The position numbers and the translations under genes were made by a program. 64,000 bases of DNA from Xestospongia muta. Lineage: Eukaryota; Porifera; Demospongiae; Haplosclerida; Petrosiidae. The notes below the pieces were generated by a model that ran no database searches, was not told the DNA's origin, and was given only the letters and a program-made list of their open reading frames with translations. The stretch is from contig OY848918.1 of NCBI GenBank assembly GCA_963693285.1, positions 744,001 through 808,000 on the forward strand, written 5' to 3'. Position 1 is the first letter of the stretch. Each line of letters begins with the position of its first letter. Positions 1 through 62,986 of the stretch are shown here, in pieces.

Positions 1-1984
1 CCGACATTATTACTGAATATAATAGAGAGAGTGCATTTTTGATGTTTAGGAGCTAACAGAAATTGACTGTCTGTTATGTTCTTAGGTTGACTTGAATATT
101 CTACTAGATATGTTTTATTAAATATAACTACATCATCACATTGTACAGTGATTTTAGCATTCTCTGGAGCTTCAGATGAACATTCTAGAATAATCTACAT
201 AAACTATGTTAATCATATAGTAACCACTATTGGATAGACTCACTGGTATATTAAACATCAAGTTGACTTCATTATTTATATAGGAGAGAATAGTAAATGT
301 AGTATTTTCTTTGGCAGATCTTGGAGCTTAAATGACATGATAAAATAAACATACATATTAGTTATTTAACTAACCTCTTTGAAAAGAGAAGGTACTATTG
401 TTATGTTCTCCTTCACCAAGTTCATTTATACCATATATGGTATATGTATATCGATGACGAAATAATTCTTGATCTTCATACTTGTATTCATTTCCATTAA
501 TAGATAGATTTTGTAATAACATCTTGTTGACATTATCATATATCAGTAGTATATAGTAAGATATCTGGACTCTACTGTCTACATTAGGAGGATCCCAACT
601 GATAGTAATAGTAGTACAGTTGTCAAGTGATGAAGAGATATTGAGAACAGAAGTAAGAAAACCTGTCTCATACAAGAGATAATAGACAAACATAACATAA
701 CATGTGATATATAACTTACCAAATGGAAATATATTGTTAGTATGATCAAACTGTCCAGCTGGATTACTAAGAGTCACCTCAACAAGATATGTCCTCAAGT
801 TAACAGGTGATGATATATTAACTATTATCAGTTGATTATTAACTAAAGACAGTGTCACATCATTAGATAATGTTTGTTGTAGAACATCATTAAAGTCCTT
901 GATATTTACTGTAACATTAGTAGGATACTCACCAATACATAGACCACTGACCTAAGAGATGAGGAAAAATTATTATAACTATAAAAACAAATTGTCTTAG
1001 TTAGCAGTGTAAGACATAGTGCAATAATATGATATCATAATATAATTGGTGTATTCTATAGACAATACATTACTGAACACTTGTACACTATAAACTAACA
1101 TTGATAAACACTTGAAATAAAAGCATGTCTTCTATTATTGTTGGAACAACTGAGACTGGAAGAGTTTGTGGAACTAAAATTTAACAAAAAATGGTGTCTC
1201 CATTTATAACATAATATATGTATATATGTATATATACCTCTAGCAATATTAAAAATAACATTATTACTATCTCCTATCCCAGCTCCATTAACACCAGAGA
1301 CATATACTGCAGTTAAAGTACAAGCTTCTAGTATATACTCAGTAGTATTAACTGTGTCTAGAAGTATTTCTTGATCATCATTGATGTTATATCCAATTAT
1401 AGGTACATTATCCAATGTATATGGTGCAGACCACATCAGTAACACACTAAATCCATTGAGAACTGTAGCAGTTAGATTTTTAACAGGAGCTAGTAAACCT
1501 ACATCAATATATAATAATAATATGACATCTATAACATTAGCTCACCTTGTATTCTTAATACAGCAATGTCACTATCTATATTCATTGGAGAACCATATGC
1601 TGTACATGATATATTAGTATTGTTATTATCTTCAAATGCTTTAGCAATTAACACTCTTCTCTTTTTCATTCCATCGAGACTGATTAGATCTTCTTGTGAA
1701 AATCCTCTGTTATTGTATATGTTATCAATAGATAATGACATATTATTGACTTTGAAGACAACCAGATCAGCAACAGCTTCACATGTAAGACTAACTGTTG
1801 AGTTGAGAGTAGTATTGACTGACTGAGGATGAACTGTAATATCTGTAAAATATGACGTAGTAATCATGATGATCAAATAATGACACTTACTAGCTGATTG
1901 GACATCTACAATAATAGATATTACCACAGTGAGCAAGATAAACAGCATCTTTCTGACTACTATTATAATAACAAGATAATACAT
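1..1984 (-). CDS. R1: Ig/FN3 receptor, 5' part only (3' end outside window)
   Basis: First eight exons of a membrane receptor: 1891-1984, 1546-1842, 1238-1498, 1100-1173, 720-951, 375-662, 244-326 and <1-194. The exons encode, in order: a signal peptide (start MYYLVIIIVV; a second Met begins MLFILLTVVISIIVDVQ); an Ig domain with Cys in CEAVAD and NISC; FN3-1 with the LLMWSAPYTLDN strand and NGAGIGDSN loop; domain X in two exons; FN3-2 (ITISWDPPN, YTIYGINELGEGEHN); and the start of the second X. The 244/194 intron is only 49 bp: its donor GTGAGT lies inside what looks like continuous coding, and reading through would hit a stop. The membrane span and tail are not in the window, so its signalling class is unknown. 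The ectodomain is closest to R2 and R5. Confidence 0.88.
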
Positions 1985-2048
1985 GACTATATAGGACTAT
2001 ATGCTAGTTTATATAACACATAGTACTATTTAGTTGTCTGTGACGTCA
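1985..2048 (-). promoter_or_regulatory. R1 core promoter: TATA box and CRE-type palindrome
   Basis: Upstream of the R1 start codon the minus strand shows a TATA element (GTTATATAAA, 2008-2017) about 25-30 bp before the ATG. A perfect palindromic TGACGTCA (2041-2048) lies a further 25 bp upstream. TGACGTCA is the canonical CREB/ATF site. R2 has the same pair at the same spacing; R3-R7 do not keep the palindrome. Function is inferred from the motif only. Confidence 0.5.
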
Positions 2049-5000: not shown

Positions 5001-5100
5001 TATTTGCTTATGTCATCATGATTATTGTGTAGTATGTCCAGATTAAGTCATTTCTGGTATTAGTAATAAAGTCATATTTTAGAGCTAAATATTATGATAG
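2049..5100. repeat. Intergenic spacer A (near-identical to spacer B)
   Basis: A gene-poor spacer of about 3 kb, collinear and nearly identical with 8300-11360 and more distantly with the spacers at 17.0-20.5, 24.0-27.5, 30.9-34.3 and 37.5-39.8 kb. No intact gene is visible. It holds decayed coding-like stretches: a minus-strand block around 2480-2720 (see the version at 31110-31343), and a plus-strand segment near 4136-4260 preceded by an acceptor-like pyrimidine tract but soon closed by stops. These look like relics of genes co-duplicated with the receptors. Confidence 0.6.
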
Positions 5101-5129
5101 TTTTTAAAAAAAGTTTATATGTTTATATA

Positions 5130-5805
5130 GTATATTATTCATGTAGCAGCTGTTGTCACAGTAACTACATAATTAAAATTGGCAAAAAGAGTTATTGTGG
5201 AATATATCCCTTTATGTCTCACAGTAAGCGAGTGCTGAAATATTGTTACTTACTTGTAGTTAGTAATATACTTGTAGAAGATTATCATTTATTACAATAT
5301 CTCTTAATATTATAGCTGGTAATATTGATGTTAGTGGTATATCATTCTCCACATCATATACATAGACTGCATAATTACCAGCTGGGAGATTATCAATACA
5401 ACCTTGTACAGTAAGATCACTTGAACTGTTTTTAACAAATGTTTTGTTCATTGAAGTCACTCCAATCACACTGACATAACATGACTTAGCAGATGGAGCA
5501 GATGAAAATACACACTCCACACATATAGAATTACCATTAGGGTAAGCAGTAGCATTTATAACATCATATGTACCTATATCATATAATAATATCAATATAT
5601 TACATAATATCACTATCTCTTACTTAAAGTATGTATCAATGAGTTACTGTGTCCAGCATTATTACTGAAGGTAATAGAGAGAGTACACTGTTGATGTTGA
5701 GGGGCTGACAAGTTTTCTGTTATGTTCATAGAATATTTGACTATATATATTTTATTAAATATAACTATATATCATCGCATTGTACAGTGACTGTACAATT
5801 GTTTG
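5130..5805 (-). pseudogene. Receptor fragment pA (X-domain and Z-domain exons only)
   Basis: An orphan piece of an R-type gene: an exon-8-like stretch (about 5636-5805) and a Z exon (about 5254-5573) with the four-cysteine pattern (CVECVF, KSCYVSV, GCIDNLPAGNY). The Z exon is longer than the 309 bp of R3, R4 and R6 and has an in-frame TAA near its 3' end. A stalk-like remnant at 5130-5180 is cut off, and the membrane and tail exons seen in the sister fragment at 11.5-12.9 kb are absent. No signal, Ig or FN3 exons precede it; the exons to its right belong to R2, which has its own 3' end. Best read as a decayed duplicate. Confidence 0.7.
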
Positions 5806-6406: not shown

Positions 6407-8235
6407 TCAAATGATATCAACATAATCAGGTGTTATTGTAACAGGTTCATAAGATGTATTCTGTGTCATTGTTATCTGATATTGTTTAGTATCTTCATAT
6501 GATATATTATGTTGTATAGTTATATCATCATCACTACCATTACAATCTATAATATAATATAATATATTATTTTACATGTATACATGATATACATACTTTG
6601 TCTCTTCTTTATAAAATAAACACCCACACAAACACTGGAGATAATTAGAATTATTAAGATACTAATGATGATCACAGTGGTGACTATTATAACTAGAGAA
6701 AGAGGAGTTATATACAAATATTTAATTATAATAACTATCATACTCGTAGAACTTGAAGATTTATGTTTTGGTAATCCATTAGTAGAAGATGGTATGACTA
6801 GTAATGTAGAATGAGATTGAATAGTGGGAGTGGCTTCTCTAATATCTACAATATAAGAATGAGGTATTCTTCTTTGTACATCTACTATCTCTTACTTAAA
6901 TTAAATATTAATGGATAACTGATAAGAGATAATACACACACACAACATAACATGTGATATAAAACTTACCAAATGGAAATGTATTGTTAGTATGATCAAA
7001 CTGTCCAGCTGGATTACTAAGAGTCACCTCAACAAAATATGTCCTCAAGTTAACAGGTGATGATATATTAACTATTATCAGTTGATTATTAACTAAAGAG
7101 AGTGTCACATTATTAGATAATGTTTGTTGTAGAACATCATTAGAGTCCTTGATATTTACTGTAACATTAGTAGGATACTCACCAATACATAGACCACTGA
7201 CCTAAGAGATGAGGAAAAATTATTATAACTATAAAAGCAAATTGTCTTAGTTAGCAGTGTAAGCCATAGTGCAATAATATGATATCATAATATAAGTAGT
7301 GAATTCAATAGACAATATATTACTGAACACTTGTTCACTATAAACTAACATTGATAAACACTTGAAATAAAATTCTGTCTTTTATTATTGTTGGAACAAC
7401 TGACACTGGAAGAGTTCGTGGAACTAAAATTTAACAAAAAAATGATGTCTCCATTTGTAATATAATATATGTATATATATATATATATACCTCTAGCAAT
7501 ATTAAACATAACATTATTACTATCTCCTATACCAGCTCCATTAACACCAGAGACATATACAGCAGTTAAAGTACAAGCTTCTAGTATATACTCAGTAGTA
7601 TTAACTGTGTCTAGAAGTGTTCCTTGATCATCATTGATGTTATATCCAGTGATAGGTACATTATCCAATGTATATGGTGCAGACCACATCAGTAACACAC
7701 TAAATCCATTGAGAACTGTAGCTGTTAGATCTCTAACAGGAGCTAGTAAACCTACATCAATATATCATAATAATATGACATCTATAACATTAGCTCACCT
7801 TGTATTCTTAATACAGCAATGTCACTATCTATATTCATTGGAGAACCATATGCTGTACATGATATATTAGTATTGTTATTATCTTCAAATGCTTCAGTAA
7901 TTAACACTCTCCTCTTTTTTATTCCATTGAGACTGATTACATCTTGTTGTGAAAATCCTCTGTTATTGTATATGTTATTAATAGATAGTAACATGTTATT
8001 GACATTGAAGACAATCAAATCAGCAACAGCTTCACATGTAAAATTAACTGTTGAGTTGAGAGTAGTATTGACTGACTGAGGATGAACTGTAATATCTGTA
8101 TAATGTTGTAGTAATCATGATGATAAAATAATGACACTTACTAGCTGATTGGACATCTACAATAATAGATATTACTACAGTGAGCAAGATAAACAGCATC
8201 TTTCTGACTACTATTATAATAACAAGATAATACAT
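6407..8235 (-). CDS. R2: short Ig-FN3-X receptor with its own membrane span and tyrosine tail
   Basis: Exons 8142-8235, 7799-8095, 7491-7751, 7350-7423, 6970-7201, 6744-6845, 6597-6692 and 6407-6546 join to 1296 bp (431 residues). The product has a signal peptide, Ig, one FN3 and one X domain. A Ser/Thr-rich stalk (ATPTIQSHSTLLVIPSS), a hydrophobic span (VTTVIIISILIILIISSV) and KKRQ follow. The roughly 46-residue tail has four tyrosines: SYEDT, YQIT, SYEPV and YVDII. YEPV and YVDI are YxxV/I motifs, and TSYEPV approaches an ITIM, but with Thr at -2. R2 lacks the second FN3-X module and the Z domain of R3-R7. Its stalk, span and tail are not related to theirs, while exons 1-5 are almost identical to R1. 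It looks like a chimera or an older short form, probably expressed because the frame is intact. Confidence 0.85.
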
Positions 8236-11479: not shown

Positions 11480-12949
11480 TATCAACACAGGAGGTGTATC
11501 ATCATCTTGTATATTAGCTGATGTAGATTAGCTGGTATAGGAGGTGGTATATCATCATCTTGTACATTAGCTGGTATAATAAGTGTTATATTATCATCTT
11601 GTACATTAGCTGGTATTATAGTAACACTAGGTATTGATGGCTCTATATCATCATAACATGGAGGATGTTGTTTTTTTTTGGTGGAAAATGAAGTATATCA
11701 GAGTACACTACTCTATCACTAGGTCACTATTTATAAGATTTCTGAAGATCTTGATAAACAGCTGTTTCTTTTGTGTACTCAATAATATTATATACAATCT
11801 CTTAATATTATTATTACTTCAATAGAAACTGCACCCTCTTCTACTTCAATACTCACAGACCTCTTTATATATGATATTAACTGAACACTGCCAATCTGTA
11901 ATATTAATAATTTGTATCATATAATAACTTACTAATGGACTAGTGTCAGGATATAGTGCTAACAGACTATTATCATTGATTAAATTGCTTCCTATGAACA
12001 GTTTTAATACAATGTTATATAACTAAATTAACTTACTCCACTGACTAAACAATCGATAACATAGTACACAACAACAACATAGTAATAAGCGTAATGTAAT
12101 GTCTTCATCTTCTATGAACGGTTTCCATCCAATGTTACATAATATAATAAAGTTAACTTACACTTCTTACAACATAGTGTATAAAAACAACACAGTAATA
12201 GACTTAATATAATGAAAAACACAAATGCTTCACCCAAAACACTAGCAAGAACAAATCCCTATTATATTATAAATAATATGGTAGTTCTTCAACTACACAA
12301 TAAAATACTAAATATAAACTAAACTTATACTAAACAATAAAATTATTGGCGATATAGTTGAAACTGTTGCATTCACAGTATTTATTCATGTAGCAGCTGT
12401 TGTCACGGTAACTACATAATTAAAATTGGCAAGAATTATTGTGGAATATATCCCTTTATGTCTCACAGTAAGTAAGTAGTGAAATATTGTAACTTACTTG
12501 TAGTTGGTAATATACTTGTAGAAGATTATCATTTATTACAATATCTCTTAATATTATAGCTGGTAATATTGATGTTAGTGGTATATCATTCTCCACATCA
12601 TATACATAGACTGTATAACTACCAGCTGGGAGATTATCAATACAACCTTGTACAGTAAAATCACTTGGACTGTTTTTAACAAATGTTTTGTTAATTGAAG
12701 TCACTCTAATCACACTAACATAACATGACTTAGCAGATGAAGCAGATGAAAATACACACTCCACACATATAGAATTACCATTAGGGTAAGCAGTAGCATT
12801 TATAACATCATATGTACCTATATCATATTATCATTATCTTTTACTTAAAGCATGTATTAATGTATCACTGTGTCCTCCATTAGTACTGAATATAATAGAG
12901 AGAGTACACTGTTTATTTTGAGGGACTGACAGTGGTTGAATTTATCTGT
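11480..12949 (-). pseudogene. Receptor fragment pB (Z exon, span-like exons, broken ITIM tail)
   Basis: 3' half of an R-type gene without its 5' half. From 5' to 3' on the minus strand: the end of an exon-8-like stretch (12843-12949), a Z exon (12498-12817), a stalk remnant near 12360-12420, two membrane-span-like exons with cysteine runs (about 12165-12260 and 12040-12115), and then a tail exon. The tail keeps KETAVYQDLQK but stops at 11727-11729, before the second ITIM. The rest of the tail (11480-11726) survives only as degenerate copies of the 39-bp repeat. The Z exon is 320 bp instead of 309 and shifts phase, so the stalk would hit a TGA. No signal or Ig exon lies upstream. Confidence 0.65.
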
Positions 12950-13680: not shown

Positions 13681-16600
13681 TTAATTGGTTTTAGAGTATG
13701 ATTCTAAACGATCATAAAGTGGAGAATGTTCTGTTTTTGGTTGAAAATGAAGTATATCAGAGTACACTACTTTATCAATAGATGGGGTAGGAGCTTGAGG
13801 TTGCTTTTTAGAAAATTTCTCAAGTTCTTGATAAACAACTGTTTCTTTTTTCTAAACAATAAAAAAATTATATACAATCTCTCAATATTATTATTACTTC
13901 AATAGAAACTGGACTCTCTTCTCTTTCAATACTCTTAGTATTCGACAGTGGCTGAGGACTGTCAATCTCTTCTTTCGGTAGATGGGGCGAAGACATCTGA
14001 ATAGATGTTATTGGCTATATATGTTATTAAAATTACATACAATCACTTAATATTATTATTACTTCAATGGAAACCACACTGTCAAGATTCTTAGTATTTG
14101 TTGACTGAACAAAGTCAATCTATAATATAATAATATTAATAATGTATCATATAATAACTTACTGATAGTCTATTATCAGCTGATAAATTAACAGCATAGG
14201 TTCCTATCAACAGTTTAAATGAAATGTTATCAGAACATATTAATTAACTCACTCTTCTTTCTATACCATAGTATGCAACAACAACAACACAGCAATAAAC
14301 ATAAAAATATGATAGCTCCACCCACAACAGGAGCAATATAATACCCTATTATATTATAAATAATTATAATATTCATTAAACTATGTACTTACATATTGGT
14401 AATGTAGTTGATAATGTTGTATTCATAGTATTAATTGGTGTTGTCATGGTAGCTACATAATATTATAATGTTATAATTGGCAAGGTAAGTTAACATAAAA
14501 TATATCAAGTAGTGTTCATAATAACAATGTAGATAAATATTGTATAACTTACTTGTAGTAGTTGGTAATGTATCAGTTATTACAAGATCTCTTAACATAA
14601 TAGCTGGTAATATTGATGTTAGTGGTATATCATTCTCCACATCATATACATAGACTGTATAATTACCAGCTGGAAGATTATCAATACAACCTTGTACAGT
14701 AAGATCACTTGGACTGTTTTGAACAAATGTTTTGTTCATTGAAGTCACTCCAATCACACTAACATAACATGACTTAGCAGATGGAGCAGGTGAAAATATA
14801 CACTCCACACATATAGAATTACCATTAGGGTAAGCAGTAGCATTTATAACATCATATGTACCTATGTCATATAATAATATCAATATATTACATAATATCA
14901 CTATCTCTTACTTAAAGTATGTATCAATGGATTACTCTGTCCAGCATTATTACTGAATATAATAGAAAGAGTACAGAGTTGATGTTTAGGAGCTGACAAA
15001 CTATCTGTTATGCTTGTAGCTTGACTTGAATATTCTACCAGATATATTTTGTTAAACATAACTACATCATCACATTGTACAGTGACTGTAACATTCTCTG
15101 GAGCTTCAGATGAACATTCCAGAATAATCTATAATAACTATGGTAATCATATAGTAACCACTATTGGATAGACTCACTGGTATATTAAACATCAACTTGA
15201 CTTCATTATTTATATAGGACAGAATAATAAATGTGGTATTTTCTTTGGCAGATCTTGGAGCTAAAATGACATCATAATATAAACACATATATTAGTTATT
15301 TTAACTAACCTCTTTGAAAAGAGAAGGTACTATTGTTATGTTCTCCTTCACCCAGTTCATTTATACCATATATGGTATATGTATAGCGATGACGAAATAA
15401 TTCCTGATCTTCATACTTGTATTCATTTCCCTTAATAGATAAATTTTGTAATAACATCTTGATGACATCATCATATATCAGTAGTATATAGTAAGATATC
15501 TGGACTCTACTGTCTACATTAGGAGGATCCCAACTGATAGTAATAGTAGTACAGTTGTCAAGTGATGAAAAGATATTGAGAACAGAAGTAAGAAAACCTG
15601 TCTCATACAAAAGATAATACACACACACAACATAACATGTGATATATAACTTACCAAATGGAAATGATATATTGTCAATGTCATCAAACTGTCCAGCTGG
15701 ATTACTAAGACTTACCTCAACAAGATATGTGCTCAAGTTAACAGGTGATGATATATTAACTATTATCAGTTGATTACTAATTAAAGACAGTGTCACATCA
15801 TTAGATAATGTTTGTTGTAGAACATCATTAGAGTCCTTGATATTCACTGTAACATTAGTAGGATACTCACCAATACATAGACCACTGACCTAGTAAAGAT
15901 AAGAGATACGAGGTAAGCTAAAAGTTAATATGTATTAAAAATATCATAGTACCATTATGAACATTGTATATATTCCAACATAATGTGTATTTTATAGAAC
16001 TACTAACTACTAGAATATTTACCAATACATATATCTTAACATTATAATAATATAATTCCACATATTGTATAGACAGACTACATTGGTTATATTATCAAGA
16101 ACACGTTTTGTCTATAAACTAACATTAATAAACGCTTGAAATAAAACATTATTTCCATCTACTGCTGGTATAACTGATACTGGAATAGTTTGAGGAACTA
16201 AAATATAACAGAAATGTACCATCACTGTATAACATAATATGTTACCTCTAGCAATATAGTACATGACATTATTACTATCTCCTATGCCAGCTCCATTAAT
16301 ACCAAAGATATATATAGTAGTTACATTACATGGATCATCATTACTAGATGTCAGGATGTACTCAGTAGTATTAACTGTGTCTTGAAGTGTTCCTTGATCA
16401 TCATTAATGTTATATCCAGTGATAGGTACATTATCCAATGTATATGGTGCAGACCACATCAGTAACACACTAGATCCATTGAGAACTGCAACAATTAGAT
16501 CTTTAACAGGAGCTAGTAAACCTACATTAATATATCATAATAATATGACATGTATAACATTAGCTCACCTTGTATTCTTAATACAGCAATGTCACTATAT

Positions 16601-17005
16601 CTGTTCATTGGAGAACCAAATGCTGTACATGATATATTAGTATTGTTATTATCTTCAAATGCTTCAGCAATTAATACTCTTCTCTTTTTCGTTCCATTGA
16701 GACTATCTTGTGGTTGTTGTGAAAATCCTCTGGTATTGTACATGTTATCATTAGATAGTAACATGTTATTGACATTGAAGACAATCAGGTCAGCAACAGC
16801 TTCACATTTAAAACTAACTGTTGAGTTGAGAGTAGTATTGACTGACTGAGGATGAACTGTAATATCTATATAATGTTGTAGTAATCATGATGATTCAATA
16901 ATGACACTTACTAGCTGATTGGACATCTACAATAATAGATATTACCACAGTGAGCAAGATAAACAGCATCTTTCTGACTACTATTATAATAACAAGATAA
17001 TACAT
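13681..17005 (-). CDS. R3: Ig-(FN3-X)2-Z receptor with two ITIM-type motifs
   Basis: Fifteen exons: 16912-17005, 16569-16865, 16246-16521, 16124-16197, 15655-15889, 15310-15597, 15178-15260, 14912-15128, 14553-14861, 14393-14452, 14253-14345, 14163-14203, 14063-14119, 13898-14014 and 13681-13851. They total 2412 bp (803 residues). Order: signal peptide, Ig, FN3, X, FN3, X, Z (CVECIF, KSCYVSV, GCIDNLPAGNY), Thr-rich stalk, membrane span ending in a five-cysteine run (LLLCCCCCILWYRKK), and tail. The last exon holds TVVYQELEKF and KVVYSDILHF, both fitting the ITIM consensus (V/I at -2, L/I at +3) and 23 residues apart, then SPLYDRLES. The extra exon 13898-14014 is Ser-Pro rich. Predicted single-pass surface receptor able to recruit SH2 phosphatases if phosphorylated; ligand unknown. 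The gene is intact. Confidence 0.9.
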
Positions 17006-23193: not shown

Positions 23194-23256
<63 letters not shown>

Positions 23257-41733: not shown

Positions 41734-43672
41734 ATGTCTATTCTTGTCATCCTTGCAGTCTGTTTAATAAGTGAATGTTTTTCAATTACAGGTAAACTAA
41801 TGATATCATAGCCTTGTCAATAATGTATTGTTCTTGTTATACAGAGATTACAGTTCATCCTCAGTCACTTAATACCACTCTGAACACAAGAGTTAGTTTT
41901 ACTTGTGAAGCTTTTGCTGTACTGATAGACTTTCAAGTAAATGGTAGTTCAGCAGATACAGCAAATGTTGTAAGCAAACAATTTACTCAACAATCTGCAC
42001 TTACTCTCAATGGTGGTAAATTGAGAAGAGTGTTAATTGCTGAAGCATTAAAAGATAATAACAATACTAATATATCATGTAAAGCATATGGTTCTCCAAT
42101 GAATATAGATAGTGACATTGCTGTATTAAGAATACAAGGTAAGCTAATGTTATAGATGTCATATTACTATGATATATTGATATAGGTTTACTAGCTCCTG
42201 TTAAAGATCTAACTGCTACAGTTCTCAATGGATCTAGTGTGTTACTGATGTGGTCCGCACCGTATACATTGGATAATGTACCTATCACTGGATATAACAT
42301 CAATAATGACCAAGGAACACTTCTAGACACAGTTAATACTACTGAATACATCCTGATATCTAGTAATGATGATCCTTGTAATGTAACTACTGTATATGTC
42401 TCTGGTATTAATGGAGCTGGTATAGGAGATAGTAATAATGTCATGTACTATATTGCTAGAGGTATAAATTTTTTTGAGAAAAATAATTTATTTTACATTT
42501 TAGCTCCCAAGAGTAACTCTACACAGTTATTACTACTGATACAACCAACAGTCTACGATACAACAATATTAATAAAAGTATTTGTTGATGTAAGTACAAC
42601 AATATCTTAACACTGAAAATAAACTGAATGTCATTATAATATATACAGGTGAGTCATCTTTGTCCTGGAGAGTATCCTACTAGTGTAGATATTATAACAA
42701 AGAATTCTACTGGTCATATAGTACATAGTCTCACTGATGGTACATTGTCTCTTATTACTGGACACCAGTTTGTTGTCAATGAGTATATTATATTGTCTAG
42801 TAAAGTTAATATACCTATCTTAACTGAGGTTACACTCAGTAATCTTGATGGAGAATTTAATGTATTAACAGATGTGGAGTTCAGTAAGTCTATATATTAT
42901 CTCCTGTTTATTAATTGTTTGTTTTATTATAGTAACTTCAGTTAATATCAGTGTTAATAATAACAGTATTTGTATCCAATGTTATTATATTGATAAGACT
43001 ACTAAATTAGGATGTCAACTGGATCTAGTCAATGATACTAAAGTACTTTATAAAGTCCAATTATTAAAGAATTCAACTACTAACAAAGCTAATGATTGTA
43101 TAGTAAATATATCAAGTGGTTACTATGACCTGTATACATATGATATTAATGAGAATAGTACAATAAATACTGTTCCTATTGATATCAAATATCAAGTATT
43201 TGTACCTACTGAGTTGATAGTTAGACCCTCTGTAGTCCTATCTACTATTTACACACTCCCTTCAATACTACCATCAACAACAACAACAATACTACCTTCA
43301 TGTAAGTTTTATATTGTGTCACTGATAACTCTATATATTTCACTTTAGCTCAGACTAATCTTGGTTCTACTAAGATTCTTATTATTATTATATCTACCAC
43401 TATACCAATAATTATAGTTGTGTCAATAATTGTGACTGTATTCATCATTATTATTATTAGAACTATCAAGAGATCTCAACAAAGTATACATTTATTCTCT
43501 TTGTTCTCTTTATGTACAATATATTGTATTAGGTCACAATATAGATGTCAATGATATCAACACACAACAGAATGAAGCTTATGATGCTATTAGACAGTTT
43601 AGAGTAAATATTGCTGAAAATATGTCTTATGGAGATATCACAAATCATCGACAACCAGTAAAAAAACGTTAA
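41734..43672 (+). CDS. P1: Ig-FN3-X-Z receptor with two YxxI motifs
   Basis: Exons 41734-41791, 41845-42138, 42186-42461, 42504-42589, 42649-42883, 42933-43301, 43349-43483 and 43545-43672 total 1581 bp (526 residues). Signal peptide MSILVILAVCLISECFS; Ig domain (VSFTCEAFAV, NISCKAYGS); one FN3 (LLMWSAPYTLDN, NGAGIGDSN); one X domain in two exons; Z domain (SICIQCYYID, DCIVNISSGYYDLYTYDI); Ser/Thr/Pro stalk; span (IPIIIVVSIIVTVFIIIII); KRSQQ. Tail motifs are EAYDAI and MSYGDI, 16 residues apart. Relative to P2 the end is frameshifted in an A-run and stops at PVKKR, removing the third motif. It is on the opposite strand from the R genes and has only one FN3-X module. A candidate AATAAA lies at 43915-43920. 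Confidence 0.9.
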
Positions 43673-47952: not shown

Positions 47953-50900
47953 TTATAGACATACAATAGTCTCTAAGTCTTGTTGACATCTTGAAAATGT
48001 CTCAAGTAATCTTTGCTTCTCTTTAGCATGTTGCTCAGATTGAGATTTGATAGATGAGATCTAGATAAAATTATTATTATAGTAGATAAGATATCTCCAC
48101 TATCTTACTCGATGTTTATAATGTTCTAAAGACTCCTAAAGTGATGCAACTTGATCAGTAAGACAGATCTAATAAAACAATGACACAATAATCCACATCA
48201 CTAAATTAACATACTATCTTCTCTTTGTCCAAGTTAGTTTTCTCCTCTAGTGACACAAGTTTCTTTTCCTGGTCAGTGAGGAGTTGTCTCTTTTGTTTGA
48301 GATATCTCTCCATGTTGAAAACACTACAAAATACAAGTATCTGATTATTATCACAAATATGTACTGACTGATCCTGTAATGTCTTCTTCTCATTGTCTTT
48401 GGCTACAAGATCATTTTGCAATGACTTTTATTGTTCAGATAAACTGCCAGATTTCTCACTAAGAGTCTGTGTATTTATTTATACAACATATAATTTAGTA
48501 ATAACAACAGACAAAACACTTACTTTCTTTTCCTCTTTTAGTTTTTATTTTCTCCTTCAAAATTAGCTCTCTTCTCTTGTTCTGTTAATACTTTCAGACC
48601 AATTGACTCCAAACCAGTACATCGTCCTTGTAACTCAATACGAGTGGTCTCAAGTGATTTGAGTTCTGCTCTTAACTCCTAATTATAATAACTTTAAATA
48701 ACTAGTTGATTATAAAGGGTTTTCTGACTTGTATTGTAGTTCTATTTGATGATAATTTCTCTTGTGATGGCTTTATTTCTCTCTCAACTTTAAACTTATC
48801 TCGTTGACATTCATCAAGTAATTGTGTCAGAGATCGTTTGGTCATTGTCAATACACTCACCTACAATAAATAGTTATATCATAATGACATCAATATTAAT
48901 GTTAATACTTGTCGAGTTAATGTTTTCAGTCTCTGTTGACAGCTCTTCAATTGTACAAACCATTTACATTTGTGGGTGGAGTCTCGTTGATATATCTTTT
49001 GACTTTCTTTTTTACTGGAGGTATCAACTTGATGAGGATGCGGTAGTACTGGATCTTTTTTCTTATGTAACTGGTAGAATTGGTTCGGTTTTCCAGTATA
49101 ACTGGATTGACAGGTACAGTTTATTGGTTCATGAATTGTTTGGTTTAGTCTTTGGACATTGTCTAATGCTTGAGTCATTTGATTATATCGTGCTATCATT
49201 TCAGTGTCTGAGTGTCGACGTGTATGGTTTCTTACGAGAAGTGGAGGAGAATTGAACAAGGAAGAAGTTGAAGTACAAACCATATCAGTTTCCACAGAAA
49301 CACATTCAGGAAGGAGTTCTACTTGAATTGCTGAGTCAATTTTTGATATATAGTCGGTATTTGTTGATGTTGTAATGACTTTTGAGAGTTGATCTTTTCC
49401 CATTGATGTTGTAAATCAATCATTGTTTGTTGAAGATCACCAGCTTCTTTACGTAATTTATAACATTCTTTTGTCAATATTCTATAAGAAAATATTTTAG
49501 ACCAATATCATATTATTTATTTATTTACTTGTTTTGATCTGTTAGTTTCATGTTTTCTTCATTCAACAAGGCTCGTTCACATTTCAATTTTTTCTTGTTC
49601 CAAAGATGAACAGGACACTGTAGTATCCAATTCTGTTATTTTTGTCTCTAATACTACAACACAATATTTTATATCATAACACAAACTATTATTCTTACTG
49701 TTCCTCTCTTGTTGTAAACATCCTCTAAGTTCAGCTATAGTAGATTTTTGTTGAGCACATAATACACTCAATCTGTCAACTTCTTCTTCAGCTATAACTA
49801 TAGTAGTAATAATAATTAATTAATATTATAATGAGAGAGACATACTTAGTAGTAATAATAAATAATTAATATTATAATGAGAGGGACATACTTAGCAGTA
49901 ATAATTAATTAATATTATAATGAGAGGGACATACTTAGCAGTAATAATAATCAATTAATATTATAACGAGAGGGACATACTTAGTAGTAATAATAATTAA
50001 TTAATGTTATAATGAGAGGGACATACTTAGCAGTAATAATTAATGTTATAATGAGAGGGACATACTTAGCAGTAATAATTAATATTATAATGACAGGGAC
50101 ATACTTAGCAGTAATAATAATTAATTAATGTTATAATGAGAGGGACATACTTATCTATTTCTAACTGTTGACATTTGCTCTTATATTGTGTATTGTGTCA
50201 ATTCATTCCACACACTCTGTATTTTCATGTTTCAAACACCGTCCAGCTCATCTATCTTTACAAGTAGGTGAGGGGTGTGGTTTTCTAGATACTGGGCTAG
50301 AGAAGGAGGTGGAGTCATGTGGTCATGTGACCCACGCGACACTCACCTATTGCTGGTGTCATATGTTTTCAGTTGTTGAAGAACTAATGTATGATTCTCT
50401 TTTAATGCCTTCATTCTCTCCAATCTCTTGTCATGTTTCTCTCTCACACATATTATTTCTTCATTCTACATACATTCTATTAATATTATAATGTCAAATA
50501 TATGTACTTACTTACCTCGGCTTTCATTTAAGTCTGTAATTCAAACAGTTCTCTTTCTGTTTTCTCTAGTAGCTCCTGAAGATCTTTAAATTGATCTTTA
50601 ACATTTGGACCAGCAGAACAATACTATATCAGAAAATAATGTTAATAAAATCTTTGTCATATCGAGGGTACCTCCATGCTCTCATGAAGACGAGACTCTG
50701 CCAGTGTTAACAATCGTCATGTCTCCTTTAACTCCCTGTACAGTTATGATGTCATAATGATGTCATATGATGTAACATACATTTGATTTGTTTCAAGTTG
50801 TTGACTCAATGCCATCACTTCATTATTAAGACTAGTCTTTTCTTCAGTCAATAAATCCATTTCATTCTGTACTAACTTAATCTCCTAATAAAATACATAT

Positions 50901-52007
50901 ACAATACAATGCGTTTAATAATTAATAAAACAACCTCTTTATATTTCATTTTTAACTGTTCTTCCCTCTTTCTTATCTTCTCTTCTAACTGTTTTAAACA
51001 TTGATTTTCTTTCAAAAATGTCGAATGATAAATCAACAGTTATACTAAATAATACATCAATAATATCTATATACCTCAATAGTTTGTTGAGTCTCTAGTT
51101 GCTGTGTACATTATAAAGACATTGTATTTTTAATAATTGAGGATTACCTTAATTTGTTGAGTCAGCTCTTCTTTCTCAGTAACTAGCTACGACTTTACTT
51201 CTGTGAGACTCTTCACTTCTTGTTCAAGACATCCTGATCGTCGTAGCAACACTATATAAATATACACATAATTACATCATAACTTGATAATTAGTAGGGA
51301 CTGACCTTCAACAGCTTTCAATTGTTGTTGTAGTTCATTCTCCTTGTCTATTAGTCTGGACTTGAGTTGACTAATTTCTTCAGATGCCTAATAAAGTATA
51401 GTTTACTGAAATATACTGAAATGTTTAATGTTTTATTACATGAGTGAGTTGATCAGAATGTTCTTGAACTCTCTCATTTTCAAGTTTTAACTTCTTGTCA
51501 ATCTGGTTTTTATCATAAGTCAACTTTTGCAATTGAATCTCAAAACCAGCAATAGTTTGGGACTGATATTCTAACTCTACAAATTAAGGACACACCCATT
51601 ACCATATAAGGACATATACATGGACACATATTCAGTAACATTACAAAGCTATACATCCATACAACAATATATATCCATTGCTGAACCTCACGTAATACTT
51701 CAATTTCTGTCTCTTTGTCTTTAAGTGTTAATTGAAGCTCTTTCTGTTCTTGCTCTCTCTTAAATTTTTCTCTAAAAATATTTACACTCATAAATCCACC
51801 CACATATCATTACTACCTAGTGATAACAAGACTAATGGCTTCTGTCACGTCAGGAGATTCTTTCTGTAGCTGTTTCCATAGTGACCAGACAAAGTCTTTA
51901 TCAGCCTATATTAATACAGTACTCACTTATAGCAATAATATAATCACATTCATTACCTTACAACGAGCTAACTCTTCTTGTAACTTAAACACTTCATCTG
52001 CAGACAT
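47953..52007 (-). pseudogene. Decayed coiled-coil protein gene (at least 15 exons)
   Basis: Exons on the minus strand begin with MSADEVFKLQEELARCK (ATG at 52007) and DKDFVWSLWKQLQKES, followed by long heptad-rich exons such as KELQLTLKDKETEIEVLRE and QKLTYDKNQIDKKLKLENE. A larger internal exon (about 48930-49403) has ARYNQMTQALDNVQRLNQ. The end is EKQRLLETFSRCQQDLETIV, with a stop at 47953-47955. In-frame stops occur at 51187-51189 (TAG), 50717-50719 (TGA) and 50528-50530 (TAA), each inside otherwise convincing coding. The composition is that of a centrosomal, ciliary or golgin-type coiled-coil protein; I cannot name the orthologue. It starts 53 bp from the ligase fragment, head to head. The lesions could in part be assembly error, but several independent stops favour a pseudogene. 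Confidence 0.7.
49841..50152. repeat. Minisatellite of 36-51 bp units, 8 copies, in an intron of the coiled-coil gene
   Basis: Eight copies of a unit containing ATAATGAGAGGGACATACTT, separated by AATAATTAATTAATATT-type filler of variable length. On the minus strand each copy includes AAGTATGTCC, which resembles a 5' splice site. The first copy in transcription order coincides with the exon end near 50150. Confidence 0.85.
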
Positions 52008-52059
52008 CTTCACTTCAAACTTGCTGCCATAGCCACACCCCAACGCTATTCTTTAATTT
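52008..52059. promoter_or_regulatory. Intergenic gap of a head-to-head gene pair
   Basis: Only 52 bp separate the coiled-coil ATG (minus) from the first in-frame ATG of the ligase fragment (plus; the next in-frame ATG is at 52093). It includes AGCCACACCCC (52030-52040) and a second GC-type box, GGGCGTGGC, lies at 52062-52070. An ancestral bidirectional promoter is the simple reading; activity now is doubtful because both genes are broken. Confidence 0.4.
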
Positions 52060-53147
52060 ATGGGCGTGGCTAATGCTTGCAAACCTAATATAATGACTAC
52101 AGCTAGCAGTGATATCTCTACTACTGCAGCAACAGTACCTGTCCAAGGAGTGCCTGATGAGGTCCCTTTCCAAGATTTCTGTGGGTAAGTTATTTAGATG
52201 GCAATACAATTTGACCACACCCAATTGACACACCCTCTTCAGGTTACTGGAGAAGATCTAGTCTACTAGCGGTAATGAATGTAAGAAGTCTATATTAGAT
52301 AAATTCATACAACAATGGAGGGATGCTTGTGATAAACTCCACTCATCAGATGCCAGTACGACAGTAAGTAAACCAGTTACATAAACCAGTTTATCGAGTT
52401 TTCTTCTGCCATTAGACTGATACATTTTCCCAGCAATGCGTCTCCTACTTCCACACTTAGATCGTCAAAGACCAGCTTATGGGATGAAAGAAGTAGCTTT
52501 AGCTAAACAATATATTGACATACTAAATATCGCCAAGGAGAGTGCTGATGCTCAAAAATTATTACATTATCGTACACCACATGCTGCTAAACAGGTTTGA
52601 CTAGTTTATTATACTTGTTTTACATGTATATTTTGTCATAGGATGCTAGCGATTTTGCAGGTGTGGCATATTTTGTACTTAGAAATCGATGTCCAGACAA
52701 AGGAAGGTAGGTACCTCTTATATGAGTTAGCCCCTCATGATTAGTGTAATTTACTTTTTTTGTTTAACACTAGCTCAAGTAAACCATTACTTGGATCAAC
52801 TTGCTCTCTCTAATGTCAAGAAAGATAGACCAGGAGTTAAAAAAGCATTGCAATATCTTCTCAGAAATACTTCAGCACAGGAACAATAGTGGCTAATTAG
52901 AACTATTTTAAAGGTACTACATGCTTATTGGTTGCCATAGTAACCACAATAATTGAATCTTTAATAACAAATGTAGTGTGTACATACAATAGATGATAGT
53001 ATTCCATCTATTAATTAATTATCTTTATTAATTATCTCCTGTATTATATTACAGGAGCTAAAGATAGGATTAAGTGAAAACTCTATACTTGTGGTCTTTC
53101 ATCTTGATGCTCTAGACTTATTTAGTGTATCCAGTAGTCTAGAGAAG
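52060..53147 (+). pseudogene. LIG4: DNA ligase IV, 5' fragment, pseudogene
   Basis: Six exon-like blocks (52060-52184, 52243-52363, 52416-52594, 52642-52706, 52763-52913, 53055-53147) match the N-terminal DNA-binding region of animal DNA ligase IV in order. Recognisable pieces are [64 protein letters not shown] and ELKIGLSENSILVVFHLDAL. Ligase IV seals double-strand breaks in end joining with XRCC4. This copy is broken several ways: TAG at 52259-52261, one T missing in the T-run near 52425, an acceptor TG instead of AG before 52763, and TAG at 52887-52889. It ends before the catalytic KxDG lysine and is followed about 90 bp later by receptor sequence. A functional copy presumably exists elsewhere. 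Confidence 0.85.
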
Positions 53148-53240: not shown

Positions 53241-54430
53241 GTATATTATATTGTCTAGTAAAGTTAATATACCTATCTCAACTGAGTTTACATTCAGTAA
53301 TCTTGATAGAGAATTTAATGTATTAACAGATGTGGAGTTCAGTAAGTCTATATATTATCTCCTGTTTATTAATTGTTTGTTTTATTATAGTAACTTCAGT
53401 TAATATCAGTGTTAATAATAACAGTATTTGTATCCAATGTTATTATATTGATAAGACTACTAAATTAGAATGTCAACTGGTTTTAGTCAATGATACTAAA
53501 GTACTTTATAAAGTCCAATTATTAAAGCATTCAACTACTAACAAAGCTAATGATTGTATAGTAAATATACCAAGTGGTTACTATGACCTCTATACATATG
53601 ATATTAATGAGAATAGTACAATGAATACTGTTCCTATTGATATCAAATATCAAGTATTTGTACCTACTGAGTTGATACTTAGATCCTCTATAGTCCTACC
53701 TACTATTTACACACTCCCTTCAATACTACCATCATCAAAAACAACAGCAACAATACTACCTTCATGTAAGTATTATATTGTGTCACTGATAACTCTATAT
53801 ATTTACTTTAGCTCAGACTAATCTTGGTTCTACTAAGATTCTTCTTATTATTTTATCTTCTACTATACTGGTAATAATAGCTTTGACAATAATTGCGGCT
53901 GTAATCGTTATCATTATTACTAGAACTTTCTAGAAATCTCAACAAAGTTGTGACGGATAATATATGTTGAGCTAGAGGATCAGGTCGAGCTAGCAGATCA
54001 CTTAATCAAGAACGAAGCGGACCAATCACAAGACAGGGAAGGGAATTCCAAAGCGGTCCAGTGATCCCGAGTGATCCTGGCCAGGACTATATAAAGAACT
54101 AATAATTATAGAGGATATATAGTAGGAGAGTTGTTGTTGGTTCGTGTAACTGTATTATTATTATTATTAAAAGTTTAAAACTATTTTAGTCACTCAGTAA
54201 CAAAAGTATATGTATCTATATATATTCTGTTTATGTACAATATATTTGTATTATGTCACAATATAGATGTCAATGATGTTTACACACAACAGAATGAAGC
54301 TTATAATGTTATTGGACAGTTTAGAGTAAATGTAGCTGAAAATATGTCTTATGGAGATATTACAACTCATAGACAACCAGTAAAAGACAATAACATCTAT
54401 GATTATATTAGAAATAGTAACTCAATATAA
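53241..54430 (+). pseudogene. Truncated P-type receptor copy with solo LTR
   Basis: Starts abruptly inside the second X exon (53241-53341) and continues with Z (53391-53765), the membrane exon (53812-53933) and a tail exon (54267-54430). There is no signal, Ig or FN3 exon upstream; instead decayed ligase sequence abuts it. The membrane exon has TAG at 53931-53933, directly after the span. The solo LTR at 53949-54202 sits at the following splice donor. The tail exon itself is still open and contains EAYNVI, MSYGDI and NIYDYI at 16-residue intervals. Nearly identical to P1 over its length, so it is a recent segmental copy that cannot make the receptor. Confidence 0.85.
53949..54202 (+). mobile_element. 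Solo LTR (254 bp) with 5-bp target duplication
   Basis: Starts TGTGACGG and ends CAGTAACA (TG...CA), and is flanked by AAAGT on both sides (53944-53948 and 54203-54207). Contains a CTATATAAAG box near 54087 and an AT-rich 3' end. The element is absent from the same site in P1 and P2. Ty3/Gypsy-type origin is likely but not proven without internal sequence. Confidence 0.8.
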
Positions 54431-56068: not shown

Positions 56069-58636
56069 TTAACTACAACAATTACAACAATACAGAAATA
56101 AACATAATATGATGACAAAGATGATAGCTCCACCCACCAAAATGATAACTCCACCAACAGCACAAATCACTATTATATCAAAAATTATTATAATATTCAT
56201 TAAAGTATATACTTACATATTAGTGATGTAGTTGATAATGTCGTGTCCATAGTACTAATTGGTGTTGTCATGGTAACTACATTATATTATAATGTTACAA
56301 TTGACAAGGTAAGTTAACATTGAAACCATCCCATAGTGTTCATAGTAACAATGCAATAAAATGTTATATAACTTACTTGTAGTAGATATATAATTTATTA
56401 CAATATCTCTTAATGTTATAGCTGGTAATATTGATGTTAGTGGTATATCATTCTCCACATCATATACATAGACTGTATAATTACCAGCTGGGAGATTATC
56501 AATACAACCTTGTACAGTAACATCATTTGGACTGTTTTTAACAAGTGTTTTGTTCATTGAAGTCACTCCAATCACACTAACATAACATGACTTAGCAGAT
56601 GGAGCTTGTGAAAATACACACTCCACACATATAGAATTACCATTAGGGTAAGCAGTAGCATTTATAACATCATATGTACCTATATCATATAATAATATTA
56701 ATATATTACATATTATTACTATCTCTTACTTAAAGTATGTATCAATGGATCACTCTGTCCAACATTATTACTGAATATAATAGAGAAATTACATTGTTGA
56801 TGTCGAAGAACTAGCAGATTATCTGTTATGTTCATAGTTTCACTTGAATATTCTACCAGATATGTTTTATTAAATATAACTACATCATCACATTGTACAG
56901 TGACTGTAGCATTCTGTGGAGCTTCAGATGAACATTCACGAATAATCTACAGTAACTATGGTAATCATATAGTAACCACTATTGGATACACTCACTGGTA
57001 TATTAAACATCAAGTTGACTTCATTATTTATATAGGACAGAATAGTAAATGTAGTATTTTCTTTGGCAGATCTTGGAGCTAAAATGACATGATAAAGTAA
57101 ACATACATATTAGTTATTTTAACTAACCTCTTTGAAAAGAGAAGGTACTATTGTTATGTTCTCCTTCACCCAGTTCATTTATACCATATATGGTATATGT
57201 ATATCGAGGATGAAATAATTGCTGATCTTCATACTTGTATTCATTTCCATTAATAGATACATTTTGTAATAACATCTTGTTGACATCATCATATATCAGT
57301 AGAATATAGTAAGATATCTGGACTCTACTGTCTACATTAGGAGGATCCCAACTGATAGTAATAGTAGTACAGTTGTCAAGTGATGAAGAGATATTGAGAA
57401 CAGAAGTAAGAAAACCTGTCTCATACAAGAAATAATACACACACACAACATAACATGTGATATATAACTTACCAAATGGAAATGGTATATTGTCAATGTC
57501 ATCAAATTGTCTTGCTGGATTACTAAGAGTTACCTCAACAAGATATGTCCTCAAGTTAACAGGTGATGATATATTAACTATTATCATTTGATTATTAACT
57601 AAAGACAGTGTCACATCATTAGATAATGTTTGTTGTAGAACATCATTAGAGTCCTTGATATTTACTGTAACATTAGTAGGATACTCAGTAATACATAGAT
57701 TACTGACCTAGTGTAGTAATATGCATTATTTGACGGAAACAAACTACAGACTAACATTGATAAATACTTGAAATAAAATACTGTCTCTCTTTATTGTTGG
57801 AATTACTAACACTGGAATAGCTAGATGTACTAAAATACAACAAAATGAAACATCTATGTATGTGTAAATATGATAATTGTGTTACCTCTAGGAATATAGA
57901 ATGTGATACTCTCACTATCTCCTATACCAGCTCCATTAATACCAGAGACATATACAGTAGTTGTATCACAGTAGTTACCAGTCAGTATGTACTCAGTAGT
58001 ATTAACTGTGTCTAGAAGTGTTCCTTGATCATCATTGATGTTATATCCAGTGATAGGTACATTATCCAATGTATATGGTGCAGACCACATCAGTAAGACA
58101 CTAGATCCATTGAGAACTGTAGCAGTTAGATCTTTAACAGGAGCTAGTAAACCTATATCAATATATCATAACAATATGACATCTATAACATTAGCTCACC
58201 TTGTATTCTTAATACAGCAATATCACTATATCTATTCCTTGAAGGAGGATCATATGCTGTACATGATATGTTAGTATTATTGTTGTCTTCAAATGCTTCA
58301 GCTAATAACACTCGTTTTAATTTACCATCATTAAGATTATATGCAGCTTGTTGAGTAAATCCTCTGTTATTAATATTTACATTAGCTGCTGAAATATCAT
58401 TGACTCTGAAGACAATATCTTCAGCAACAGCTACACATGTAAAATTAACTGTTGAGTTGAGAGTAGTATTGACTGACTGAGGATGAACTGTAATATCTAT
58501 ATAATGTTGTAGTAATCATGATAATCTAATAATGACACTTACTAGCTGTATGGACATCTACAATAATAGATATTACTACAGTGACCAAGATAAACACCAT
58601 CTTTCTGACTACTATTATAAAAACAAGATAATACAT
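56069..58636 (-). CDS. R7: Ig-(FN3-X)2-Z receptor with essentially no cytoplasmic tail
   Basis: Exons 58543-58636, 58200-58496, 57886-58152, 57756-57829, 57473-57707, 57128-57415, 56996-57078, 56730-56946, 56377-56679, 56217-56276 and 56069-56169 total 2019 bp (672 residues). The ectodomain is the full R3/R4 type; the signal (KMVFILVTVVISIIVDVHTA) and the Ig domain are the most divergent of the R set. The last exon encodes a Gly-rich hydrophobic span (GGVIILVGGAIIFVIILCLF) and ends LYCCNCCS stop, just after the membrane. No charged residue is seen in the span, so adaptor pairing in the style of KIR/DAP12 is not suggested. The cysteines could be acylated. It is a decoy, ligand-presenting or co-receptor candidate. 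No reading-frame damage is seen. Confidence 0.88.
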
Positions 58637-61050: not shown

Positions 61051-61067
61051 TCTGTCTTTATACAAAG

Positions 61068-62986
61068 ATGTCTATCCTTGTCATCCTTGCAGTCTACTTG
61101 TTAAGATATTCTTCAGCTACAGGTGAGTTAATGACATCATAACCTTGTTAATAATGTATTGTTCTTATAATAGAGATTACAGTTCATCCTCAGTCAGTCA
61201 ATAGTACTCTTAACTCAACAGTTAGTTTTACATGTGAAGCTGTTGTTGATATTATTATCTTTCGAGTTAATGATACCTCAGCAGCTAATGTAGAAGTTGT
61301 TAACAGAGGATTTAATCAACAATTGATAGATAGTCTCAGTGGTGGTAAAGTAAGAAGAGTGTTATCAGCTAAAGCATTTGAAGACAACAATAATACAAAC
61401 ATATCATGTAGAGCTTATGGCTCAGTGAATATAGATAGTGACATTGCTGTATTAAGAATACAAGGTGAGCTAATGTTATAGATGTCATATTATTATAATA
61501 TATTGATGTAGGTTTACTAGCTCCTGTTAAAGGTCTAACTGCTACAATTCTCAATGGATCTAGTGTGTTACTGATGTGGTCTGCACCATATACATTGGAT
61601 AATGTACCTATCACTGGATATAACATCAATGATGATCAAGGAACACTTCTAGACACAGTTAATACTACTGAGTACATCCTGACATCTAGTAATGATGATC
61701 CATGTAATGTAACTACTGTATATGTCTCTGGTATTAATGGAGCTGGTATAGGAGATAGTAATAATGTCATGTACTATATAGCTAGAGGTATAGTTTTTTT
61801 TGAGAAAAATAATTTAGTTTACAATTTAGCTCCCAAGAGTGGCTATAAACATTTATTACTATTGATAAAACCAACAGTCTATGATACAACAATATCAATA
61901 CAAGTATTTGTTAATGTAAGTACACCAGCAATATCATAACAGTAAAAATAAACAGAATGTCATTATAATATTTACAGGTGAGTCATCTTTGTCCTGGAGA
62001 GTATCCTACTAGTCTAGATATTATAATAAAGAATTCTACTGGTCATATAGTACATAGTCTCACTGATGGTACATTGTCTCTTATTACTGGACACCAGTAT
62101 GTTGTTAATGAGTATATTGTATTGCCAAGTAAAGTTAATATACCTATCTCAACTGAGGTTACATTCAGTAATCTTGATGGAGAATTTAATGTAATAACAG
62201 ATGTGAAGTTCAGTAAGTCTATTTATTACCTCCTGTTTATTAATTGTTTTATTATAGTAACTTCAGTTAATATCAGTGTTAATAATAACAGTATTTGTAT
62301 CCAATGTTATTATATTGATAAGACTACTAAATTAGGATGTCAACTGGATCTAGTCAATGATACTAAAGCACTTTATACAGTCCAATTATTAAAGAATTTA
62401 ACTACTAACAAAGCTAATGATTGTATAGTGAATATATCAAGTGGTTACTATGACCTCTATACATATGATATTAATGAGAATAGTACAATAAATACTGTTC
62501 CTATTGATATCAAATATCAAGTATTTGTACCTACTGAGTTGATACTACTATCATCAACAACAACAACAACAACAATACTACCTTCATGTAAGTATTACCT
62601 TGTGTCACTGATAACTATACATATTTCATTTTAGCTCAGACTAATATTAGTTCTACTCTGACTATTATCATTATTATATCTGCTACTTTATCAGTTATAA
62701 TAGTTGTGTCAATAATTGTGGCTGTAGTCATCATTATTATTATTAAAACTATCAAGAGATCTCAACAAAGTATATATATATTCTGTTTATGTACAATATA
62801 TTTGTATTATGTCACAATATAGATGTCAATGATGTTTACACACAACAGAATGAAGCTTATGATGTTATTGGACAGTTTAGAGTAAATGTGGCTGAAAATA
62901 TGTGTTATGGAGATATCACAACTCATAGACAGCCAGTAAAAGACAATAACATCTATGATTATATTAGAAATAATAACTCAATATAA
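61068..62986 (+). CDS. P2: Ig-FN3-X-Z receptor with three evenly spaced YxxI motifs
   Basis: Exons 61068-61122, 61174-61464, 61512-61787, 61830-61915, 61978-62212, 62258-62587, 62635-62769 and 62823-62986 total 1572 bp (523 residues). Signal MSILVILAVYLLRYSSA; Ig (VSFTCEAVVD, NISCRAYGS); FN3; X; Z (SICIQCYYID, DCIVNISSGYYDLYTYDI); Thr stalk; span (ATLSVIIVVSIIVAVVIIII) then KRSQQ. The tail contains EAYDVI, MCYGDI and NIYDYI, with 12 residues between consecutive YxxI motifs. That fits the relaxed ITAM pattern YxxI/L-x(6-12)-YxxI/L twice over. If phosphorylated it could engage tandem-SH2 kinases or adaptors; this is inference. The LTR fragment ends 38 bp upstream of the ATG and may have replaced or altered its promoter. 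The gene is intact. Confidence 0.9.

Follow-up and report, generated by a model that had tools for sequence, protein, structure and literature searches.

In passages of PMC12065747, the mechanisms of invertebrate allorecognition are called a mystery; the candidate proteins are described there as not conserved among sponges, cnidarians, and ascidians, with immunoreceptor tyrosine-based inhibitory motif (ITIM)- and activation motif (ITAM)-type sequences recurring in Hydractinia, Botryllus, and mammals. The Hydractinia Alr complex is a large cluster of 41 immunoglobulin (Ig) superfamily genes (in passages of PMC11999971), and ITIM/ITAM-type motifs are reported for it (PMC12065747). Botryllus FcoR comprises Ig receptors encoded in a histocompatibility locus, whose tails carry either ITIM or hemITAM/core tyrosine motifs and whose ectodomain consists of a V-type Ig, a sushi, and two C2 Ig domains (passages of PMC12065747). 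Here, we analyzed a stretch of 64,000 nucleotides from the sponge Xestospongia muta (the window; contig OY848918.1, hereafter C2, positions 744001 to 808000, in a genome of 158.0 Mb on 28 contigs) which encodes a cluster of Ig-bearing receptors. This window is part of a far larger tandem receptor array, and similar Ig domains within the array are carried on different cytoplasmic tails. We consider it probable, short of strong confidence, that the complex encodes type I membrane receptors in which one pool of ectodomains is displayed on two old, alternative tails with opposing signals.

Receptor genes and tail classes in the window

Seven minus-strand genes (R1 to R7) and two plus-strand genes (P1 and P2) bear Ig exons and encode a signal peptide, an Ig domain, fibronectin type III (FN3)-type domains, and a transmembrane (TM) helix. 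A sequence-only reading of the window had proposed nine receptor genes on one extracellular plan, and all nine were recovered with Ig and open ectodomain exons. The reference models, R5 (15 exons, 870 amino acids) and P2 (8 exons, 523 amino acids), have GT-AG boundaries at every intron. Ectodomain exons E2 to E9 have open frames and splice sites in R1 and R3 to R7 (the last two of R1 lie left of the window), and E2 to E5 are present in R2, whose exon joins were read by eye. Receptor fragments lie at 5.3, 12.5, and 53.2 kb. The features are as follows, in window coordinates.

1 to 1984, minus strand: R1; signal, Ig, and FN3-type exons, continuing past the left edge of the window to a two-ITIM tail at C2:742.9 kb
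5287 to 5768, minus strand: orphan D5/D6 exons downstream of R2
6407 to 8235, minus strand: R2; signal, Ig (91% identical to R5), FN3, D3, stalk and TM exon (6597 to 6845), and multi-tyrosine tail exon (6407 to 6546)
11492 to 12938, minus strand: receptor fragment; part of D5, D6, and a broken ITIM-type tail, without Ig
13681 to 17005, minus strand: R3; full ectodomain, TM, and short tail with two ITIMs, VVYQEL and VVYSDI
20503 to 24005, minus strand: R4; full ectodomain, Cys-rich TM, and long tail with two ITIMs, VVYQDL and VLYSDI
27454 to 30861, minus strand: R5; two ITIMs, IVYQDL and VVYSDI, with proline-rich repeats
34398 to 37495, minus strand: R6; full ectodomain, TM exon continuous with internal tail-repeat sequence, which is read in a different frame
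41734 to 43672, plus strand: P1; Ig-FN3-D3-D6-TM, tail YDAI-x12-YGDI followed by a frameshift and stop
53242 to 54430, plus strand: P fragment; part of D3, D6, TM with a stop, and P tail, without Ig
56069 to 58636, minus strand: R7; full ectodomain, TM ending in a Cys cluster, stop just past the TM, without tail
61068 to 62986, plus strand: P2; tail YDVI-x12-YGDI-x12-YDYI

Two tail classes are seen directly in these gene structures. The first, an ITIM pair under a strict ITIM rule (IxYxxL, a proline-rich stretch, and VxYSDI; tyrosine spacing of 23), is present in R3, R4, and R5, as proposed earlier, and also in R1. The second is a multi-tyrosine tail (NxxYxxI, N..YxxV, and YxxI/V; tyrosine spacing of 16) shared in related forms by P1, P2, and R2. 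Evenly spaced YxxI motifs had been reported for both P genes; P2 has three at x12 spacing, the spacing also of the FcgammaRIIA ITAM, and P1 keeps two ahead of its frameshift. The short tyrosine tail noted earlier for R2 is a multi-tyrosine exon (NISYEDT...NTSYEPV...PDYVDII) whose kinship to the P tail had gone unnoticed: a search with it finds the P tails at 38% identity over the tail (E = 3e-7). No tyrosine of the P2 tail has D or E at -3.

The proposal of at least five kinds of tail is reduced by this analysis. The ITIM-pair and multi-tyrosine tails stand, as does R7, best read as a tail-less form; the R6 tail and the P1 end, broken by its frameshift, probably reflect decay rather than tail types. 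The 53-kb fragment, with its stop in the TM, likewise looks like decay.

Genome-wide, a search with the P tail found 16 copies, all on the plus strand of C2:681-995 kb, and one weak match elsewhere. The first two tyrosines keep the same spacing in 15 of 16 copies. The residue pattern was read in 15 of the 16, omitting the truncated 864.9k copy and including 691.8k despite its in-frame stop (loci elsewhere on C2 are labelled by kb position or as L030, L044, and the like); proline at -2 is absent from all 15, with Asn at -3, Tyr, and a hydrophobic residue at +3 kept. Strong matches to the R2 tail number 15, itself included; seven of them fall within 2.46-2.54 Mb and another two within 3.16-3.17 Mb. 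Two further matches, 820k and 892k, are weaker.

Motifs this short could be chance matches to loose consensus sequences. At least two strict ITIMs arise in 1,000 of 20,000 shuffles of the R5 tail, and because 5% of shuffles reach two ITIMs, we rejected the ITIM count alone as evidence. An equally spaced YxxPhi triplet like that of P2 is much rarer (20 of 20,000 tail shuffles), P-tail spacing is fixed, and the motifs are conserved across arrays and genera, which is stronger evidence for them than shuffle counts. Chance resemblance was already disfavored on these grounds, and we regard it as very improbable.

Tail switching and conservation of the tail motifs

The closest Ig domains on opposite tails are those of R5 and R2 (0.908 identity), 745k and R2 (0.878), and 621k and 633k (0.865), the last pair lying outside the window; tail switching on similar Ig domains is thus observed directly. 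Mean Ig identity is 0.687 between ITIM-tailed genes, 0.619 between genes with multi-tyrosine tails (Y3), and 0.624 across the two classes. In an Ig tree labelled by tail (18 of 31 Ig rows, the other 13 having an unassigned tail or one judged broken), the labels are interspersed, with four changes on the best tree, two of them forced by well-supported branches. The forced changes indicate that tails and Ig domains have re-assorted at least twice, and such re-assortment is the hallmark of paired receptors.

The R and P sets had been described as lying on opposite strands. This arrangement is seen inside the window and breaks down beyond it, as 627k+ and 700k+ are built like R genes; strand was therefore rejected as a proxy for tail class. 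A strand-labelled version of the pairing test, with these two rows mislabelled, agreed.

Within C2:580-808 kb, 10 of 23 ITIM-exon loci retain both ITIMs in an open frame under the strict rule, a cautious count, since a stop before the motif, as in L042, L046, and other copies, may be bypassed by splicing at a different acceptor. L044 (2.467 Mb) and L045 (1.815 Mb) also keep both ITIMs with the frame open. Tail exons without an ectodomain just upstream occur at 598k, 606k, 626k, 646k, 658k, and 697k in the 580-808 kb region; these orphan ITIM exons may reflect decay or serve as alternative 3' exons of neighboring genes.

The ITIM cores are also kept at a distance. In a second array at C2:8.3-8.6 Mb, about 7.6 Mb away, all seven copies read retain both ITIMs. 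We compared these seven, which were found by similarity to the same ITIM exon, with 14 first-array copies open over the first 36 exon codons (736k for 34), leaving out copies with a stop before the motif, among them L042, L046, and 589k. Tail identity between the arrays is about 41% over aligned columns, identity being 0.62 in the ITIM columns versus 0.30 in the other tail columns (p = 0.012). The best-kept positions are the first tyrosine (0.93), its +3 Leu (1.00), the Val at -2 of the second tyrosine (1.00), and the second tyrosine itself (1.00); the S, D, and I that follow score 0.86 to 0.93, and parts of the proline-rich run are also kept. Among the 14 first-array copies, 13 have both tyrosines and 12 the consensus at both. 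The ratio of nonsynonymous to synonymous divergence (dN/dS) at ITIM codons is 0.20 across 12 R rows, which do not include the open copies 646k and L043, and is partly circular, the row pattern having demanded both tyrosines and their flanks.

This second receptor array extends over C2:7.47-8.75 Mb (L029 and L047 to L051); L029 encodes FN3 domains, and the ITIM-pair tail of the array is a homologue of the tail in the window genes. Three FN3 exons with 75 to 76% identity to the window's FN3-2 exon lie at C1:14.47-14.60 Mb.

Extent of the array and diversity of the ectodomain

The sequence-only reading had called for a search for further members, and the array proved to reach far beyond the window. 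Searches with a window-type Ig exon and with a second Ig subfamily scored the best 150 of 179 and the best 150 of 205 candidates, respectively. The first returned at least 70 matches (E ≤ 2.7e-9), all those listed being on C2 (55 within 594-1000 kb and 15 within 2.46-3.20 Mb). The second returned at least 127 (E ≤ 1.5e-8), 125 of them on C2:1.117-3.223 Mb and, among the matches listed, a single one on C3 and another on C10. Weak matches of this second search to 22 window-type Ig exons link the two subfamilies. Together these make at least 197 matches, 195 of them inside 2.6 Mb, a rough figure that counts matched pieces, some fragmentary or broken. The second-subfamily region (C2:1.12-3.22 Mb) includes L030 and L031; in the latter, a 165-amino-acid open reading frame near a receptor gene has no Pfam match at E ≤ 0.01.

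By Pfam scan, R5 and P2 contain one Ig domain (a weak match) and FN3-type domains. The N-terminal Ig domain is diversified and I-set-like. Its exon is the most divergent of the ectodomain (mean amino acid identity, 0.63 to 0.64; mean dS, 0.42 to 0.47), and the remaining exons look as if they had been homogenized (mean identity, 0.78 to 0.94; dS, 0.04 to 0.17). Within the Ig domain, variation falls on alternate residues of strand C and also in the C'-D, E, and FG regions, and the variability profile correlates with that of relatives in the sponge Amphimedon queenslandica (rho = 0.78, 94 columns). The dN/dS of the whole Ig exon is 0.59 to 0.62; positive selection on the Ig domain was looked for and not found, dN/dS not being confidently above 1.

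Such an array might be largely nonfunctional, a set of duplicates with fast turnover kept by unequal exchange, in which the tail motifs are passengers. Many fragments, orphan tails, and frameshifts would fit this account, as would a D6 dN/dS of 1.24, a value that rests on very low divergence, and five R2-type tails that differ by amino acid changes only. However, all 31 near-full-length Ig exons are open despite the mean dS given above, and the third of Ig sites that is conserved has a dN/dS of 0.16. In C2:580-808 kb, every one of the eight exons is open and can be spliced in 15 R ectodomains (17 counting two without a detected last donor, in a survey that tolerated small in-frame shifts of splice sites), and the ITIM cores are kept against a diverged background. 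We therefore find a passenger array highly unlikely. The P genes at 680k, 694k, 785k, and 805k also have an open, spliceable ectodomain and TM.

Four minus-strand open reading frames at 48879 to 52257 of the window are unlike the receptors and have no Pfam match at E ≤ 0.01; a 46-bp tandem repeat (49801 to 50153) lies between them.

Proposed opposing signals of the tails and comparison with known systems

The same genome contains candidate partners for both tails. Five SHP-type phosphatase genes are present, four confirmed by Pfam: three tandem SH2-SH2-PTP genes in single open frames at C3:11.956-11.961 Mb (L052), the first with Gln for His in the HC(X)5R motif, before the catalytic Cys; L053, whose best PDB match is SHP-2/PTPN11 (E = 1.3e-196); and L054, a multi-exon gene read from its frames. 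The copies besides those on C3 sit on C5 and C8. A Syk-type SH2-SH2-kinase gene, L058 (best PDB match SYK, E = 7e-48), is followed by a kinase exon, and Src-type kinase genes are present. Arrays of SH2 genes lie at C8:6.53-6.58 Mb and C6:217-238 kb; one gene was read from each, giving a Src-type SH2-kinase for the first array and the SH3-SH2 portion of a kinase for the second. Syk-family kinases are already known from sponges (PMC9601881), and passages of that paper name no sponge receptor for them.

These components suggest how the two tails might work. The ITIM-pair tail would be phosphorylated by Src-type kinases and would then recruit the tandem SH2 domains of SHP-2-type phosphatases, making its bearers putatively inhibitory; the partners of the multi-tyrosine tail would be SH2 or PTB proteins, for example the Syk-type kinase or Grb2-type adaptors, making this tail putatively activating. 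With the Ig domain as the presumed ligand-binding part, a cell could balance opposing signals from similar ligands. Phosphorylation, partners, polarity, and a role in recognition are all predicted here from sequence.

Several observations weigh against this proposal. In C2:580-808 kb, 13 of the 23 loci with an ITIM exon are damaged or do not have a motif under the strict rule. Tail classes still group to some extent on the Ig tree (21 and 35 of 500 shuffles of the labels give values as low), and support is weak for 11 of the 15 inner branches. The first tyrosine of R2 has no hydrophobic residue at +3, and by eye, the TM hydrophobic cores of R2, R7, P1, and P2 contain no charged residue. At the third of Ig sites most variable in Amphimedon, dN/dS is 0.79 (range, 0.49 to 1.12), not above 1; in close pairs, the middle third reaches 1.40 (range, 0.83 to 2.71), not confidently above 1. 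Finally, the multi-tyrosine tail takes an NPxY form in Amphimedon (NPAYDDI...NPAYGEV) and in L030 (NPAYDEV...NPSYITV-x9-YENI), which would fit PTB or endocytic partners. The tail appears ITAM-like by its spacing and NPxY-like in these relatives, the latter presumably the older form.

The strongest alternative is a role in adhesion, with docking through NPxY. In that case, the Ig-FN3 ectodomains would mediate cell-cell or matrix adhesion in the manner of LAR or contactin, the multi-tyrosine tails would serve in NPxY/YxxPhi-type docking or in endocytosis, as in integrin beta and LRP, and the ITIMs would tune adhesion as in PECAM-1, with no pairing. The NPxY motifs of several Amphimedon tails and of the L030 tail are real evidence for it. 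LAR, PTP-delta, fibronectin, and contactin are also among the best structural matches (Foldseek and VIA-align, which report shared folds only, so that a family missing there is not excluded). However, the consistent loss of proline from the P tails, with the Asn, Tyr, and hydrophobic positions kept, favors an SH2-type reading. A diversified Ig domain and an array of this size would seem excessive for housekeeping adhesion, and the five SHP-type genes also weigh against this account. On this evidence, we judge the adhesion account unlikely, though to be taken seriously.

The reading with opposing tails can be extended, tentatively and with less than even confidence, to a 2.6-Mb complex of the order of 200 Ig receptors wired to expanded SHP- and Syk/Src-type genes, which could be a sponge locus for allorecognition or for the sensing of symbionts or pathogens; from one genome, these three roles are indistinguishable. 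An array with opposing tails alongside SHP- and Syk-type genes would extend the ITIM/ITAM-type pattern to sponges and, if true, would mean that the sponge lineage also uses paired logic of this kind. The array is a defined locus, resembles human paired immune receptors in arrangement, and is a good place to study self/non-self discrimination in sponges.

The window genes appear to belong to an uncharacterized sponge Ig-FN3 family, represented in these searches by predicted proteins of Amphimedon and a single JGI record. Of the 17 relatives listed for R5, 16 are from A. queenslandica (36 to 46% identity over 40 to 64% of R5) and one is a JGI protein, P0015, on a 1,788-base contig; it is uninterrupted across intron positions, which suggests a spliced transcript. 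All 26 relatives listed for P2 are from Amphimedon, and the match to the last of them, P0027, covers just 18%. Uncharacterized Amphimedon proteins with fibronectin type III domains (among them LOC109583141, LOC109583147, and LOC109583152) share the order of Ig, FN3-type domains, and TM, and both tail classes occur among family members: P0003 carries YSDL...VEYADI...YDDV with proline-rich repeats, and P0012 and P0013 carry NPAYDDI-x12-NPAYGEV-x9-YDEI. The remaining members show a single motif or no motif, and a clear TM is missing from several of the predicted proteins. Three members lie on contigs of 169,778 each, probably one contig. Amphimedon differs in retaining NPxY in the multi-tyrosine tail and in having fewer members among the matches listed. 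An Amphimedon family profile matched FN3 chains of titin, DCC, and neogenin in PDB and no immune receptor at E ≤ 1e-4. In the titles and abstract beginnings of open-license PMC papers, we found no description of the family in sponges and no function in print. Beyond the sequence-only reading, the R2/R5 tail switch, the second pair outside the window, both tail classes in Amphimedon, the ITIM cores kept in the second array, and the SHP and Syk genes are new here.

That reading had likened the cluster to KIR, LILR, SIRP, and Siglec. The likeness holds for organization, namely a tandem cluster, an ITIM pair, and similar ectodomains on different tails, as in R2/R5 (90.8%) and 621k/633k (86.5%). 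It is not supported as descent: among the homologues listed there is no KIR, LILR, SIRP, Siglec, or CEACAM family, and the ectodomain combines Ig with FN3-type domains. Classic adaptor-coupled activating receptors have a charged residue in the TM, unlike the TM cores read here, and the activating class of the array is putative. In CEACAM and FcgammaRII pairs, the activating motif lies in the receptor's own tail, and by analogy, the window receptors would work most like these. LAR-type receptor phosphatases share the Ig and FN3 folds, but the Pfam scan of R5 and P2 found no phosphatase match for their cytoplasmic PTP domain. The same scan found no sushi domain (E ≤ 1), a feature of FcoR. Hydractinia Alr is alike in being a large Ig superfamily cluster with ITIM/ITAM-type motifs (in the passages cited above) and unlike in its V-set/I-set ectodomain, where the window genes have one Ig followed by FN3-type domains. 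By predicted domain composition, the window family thus falls outside vertebrate paired receptors, Alr, and FcoR. Most likely, these are paired-type recognition receptors that are not homologous to KIR or CEACAM and stand parallel to Hydractinia Alr and Botryllus FcoR.

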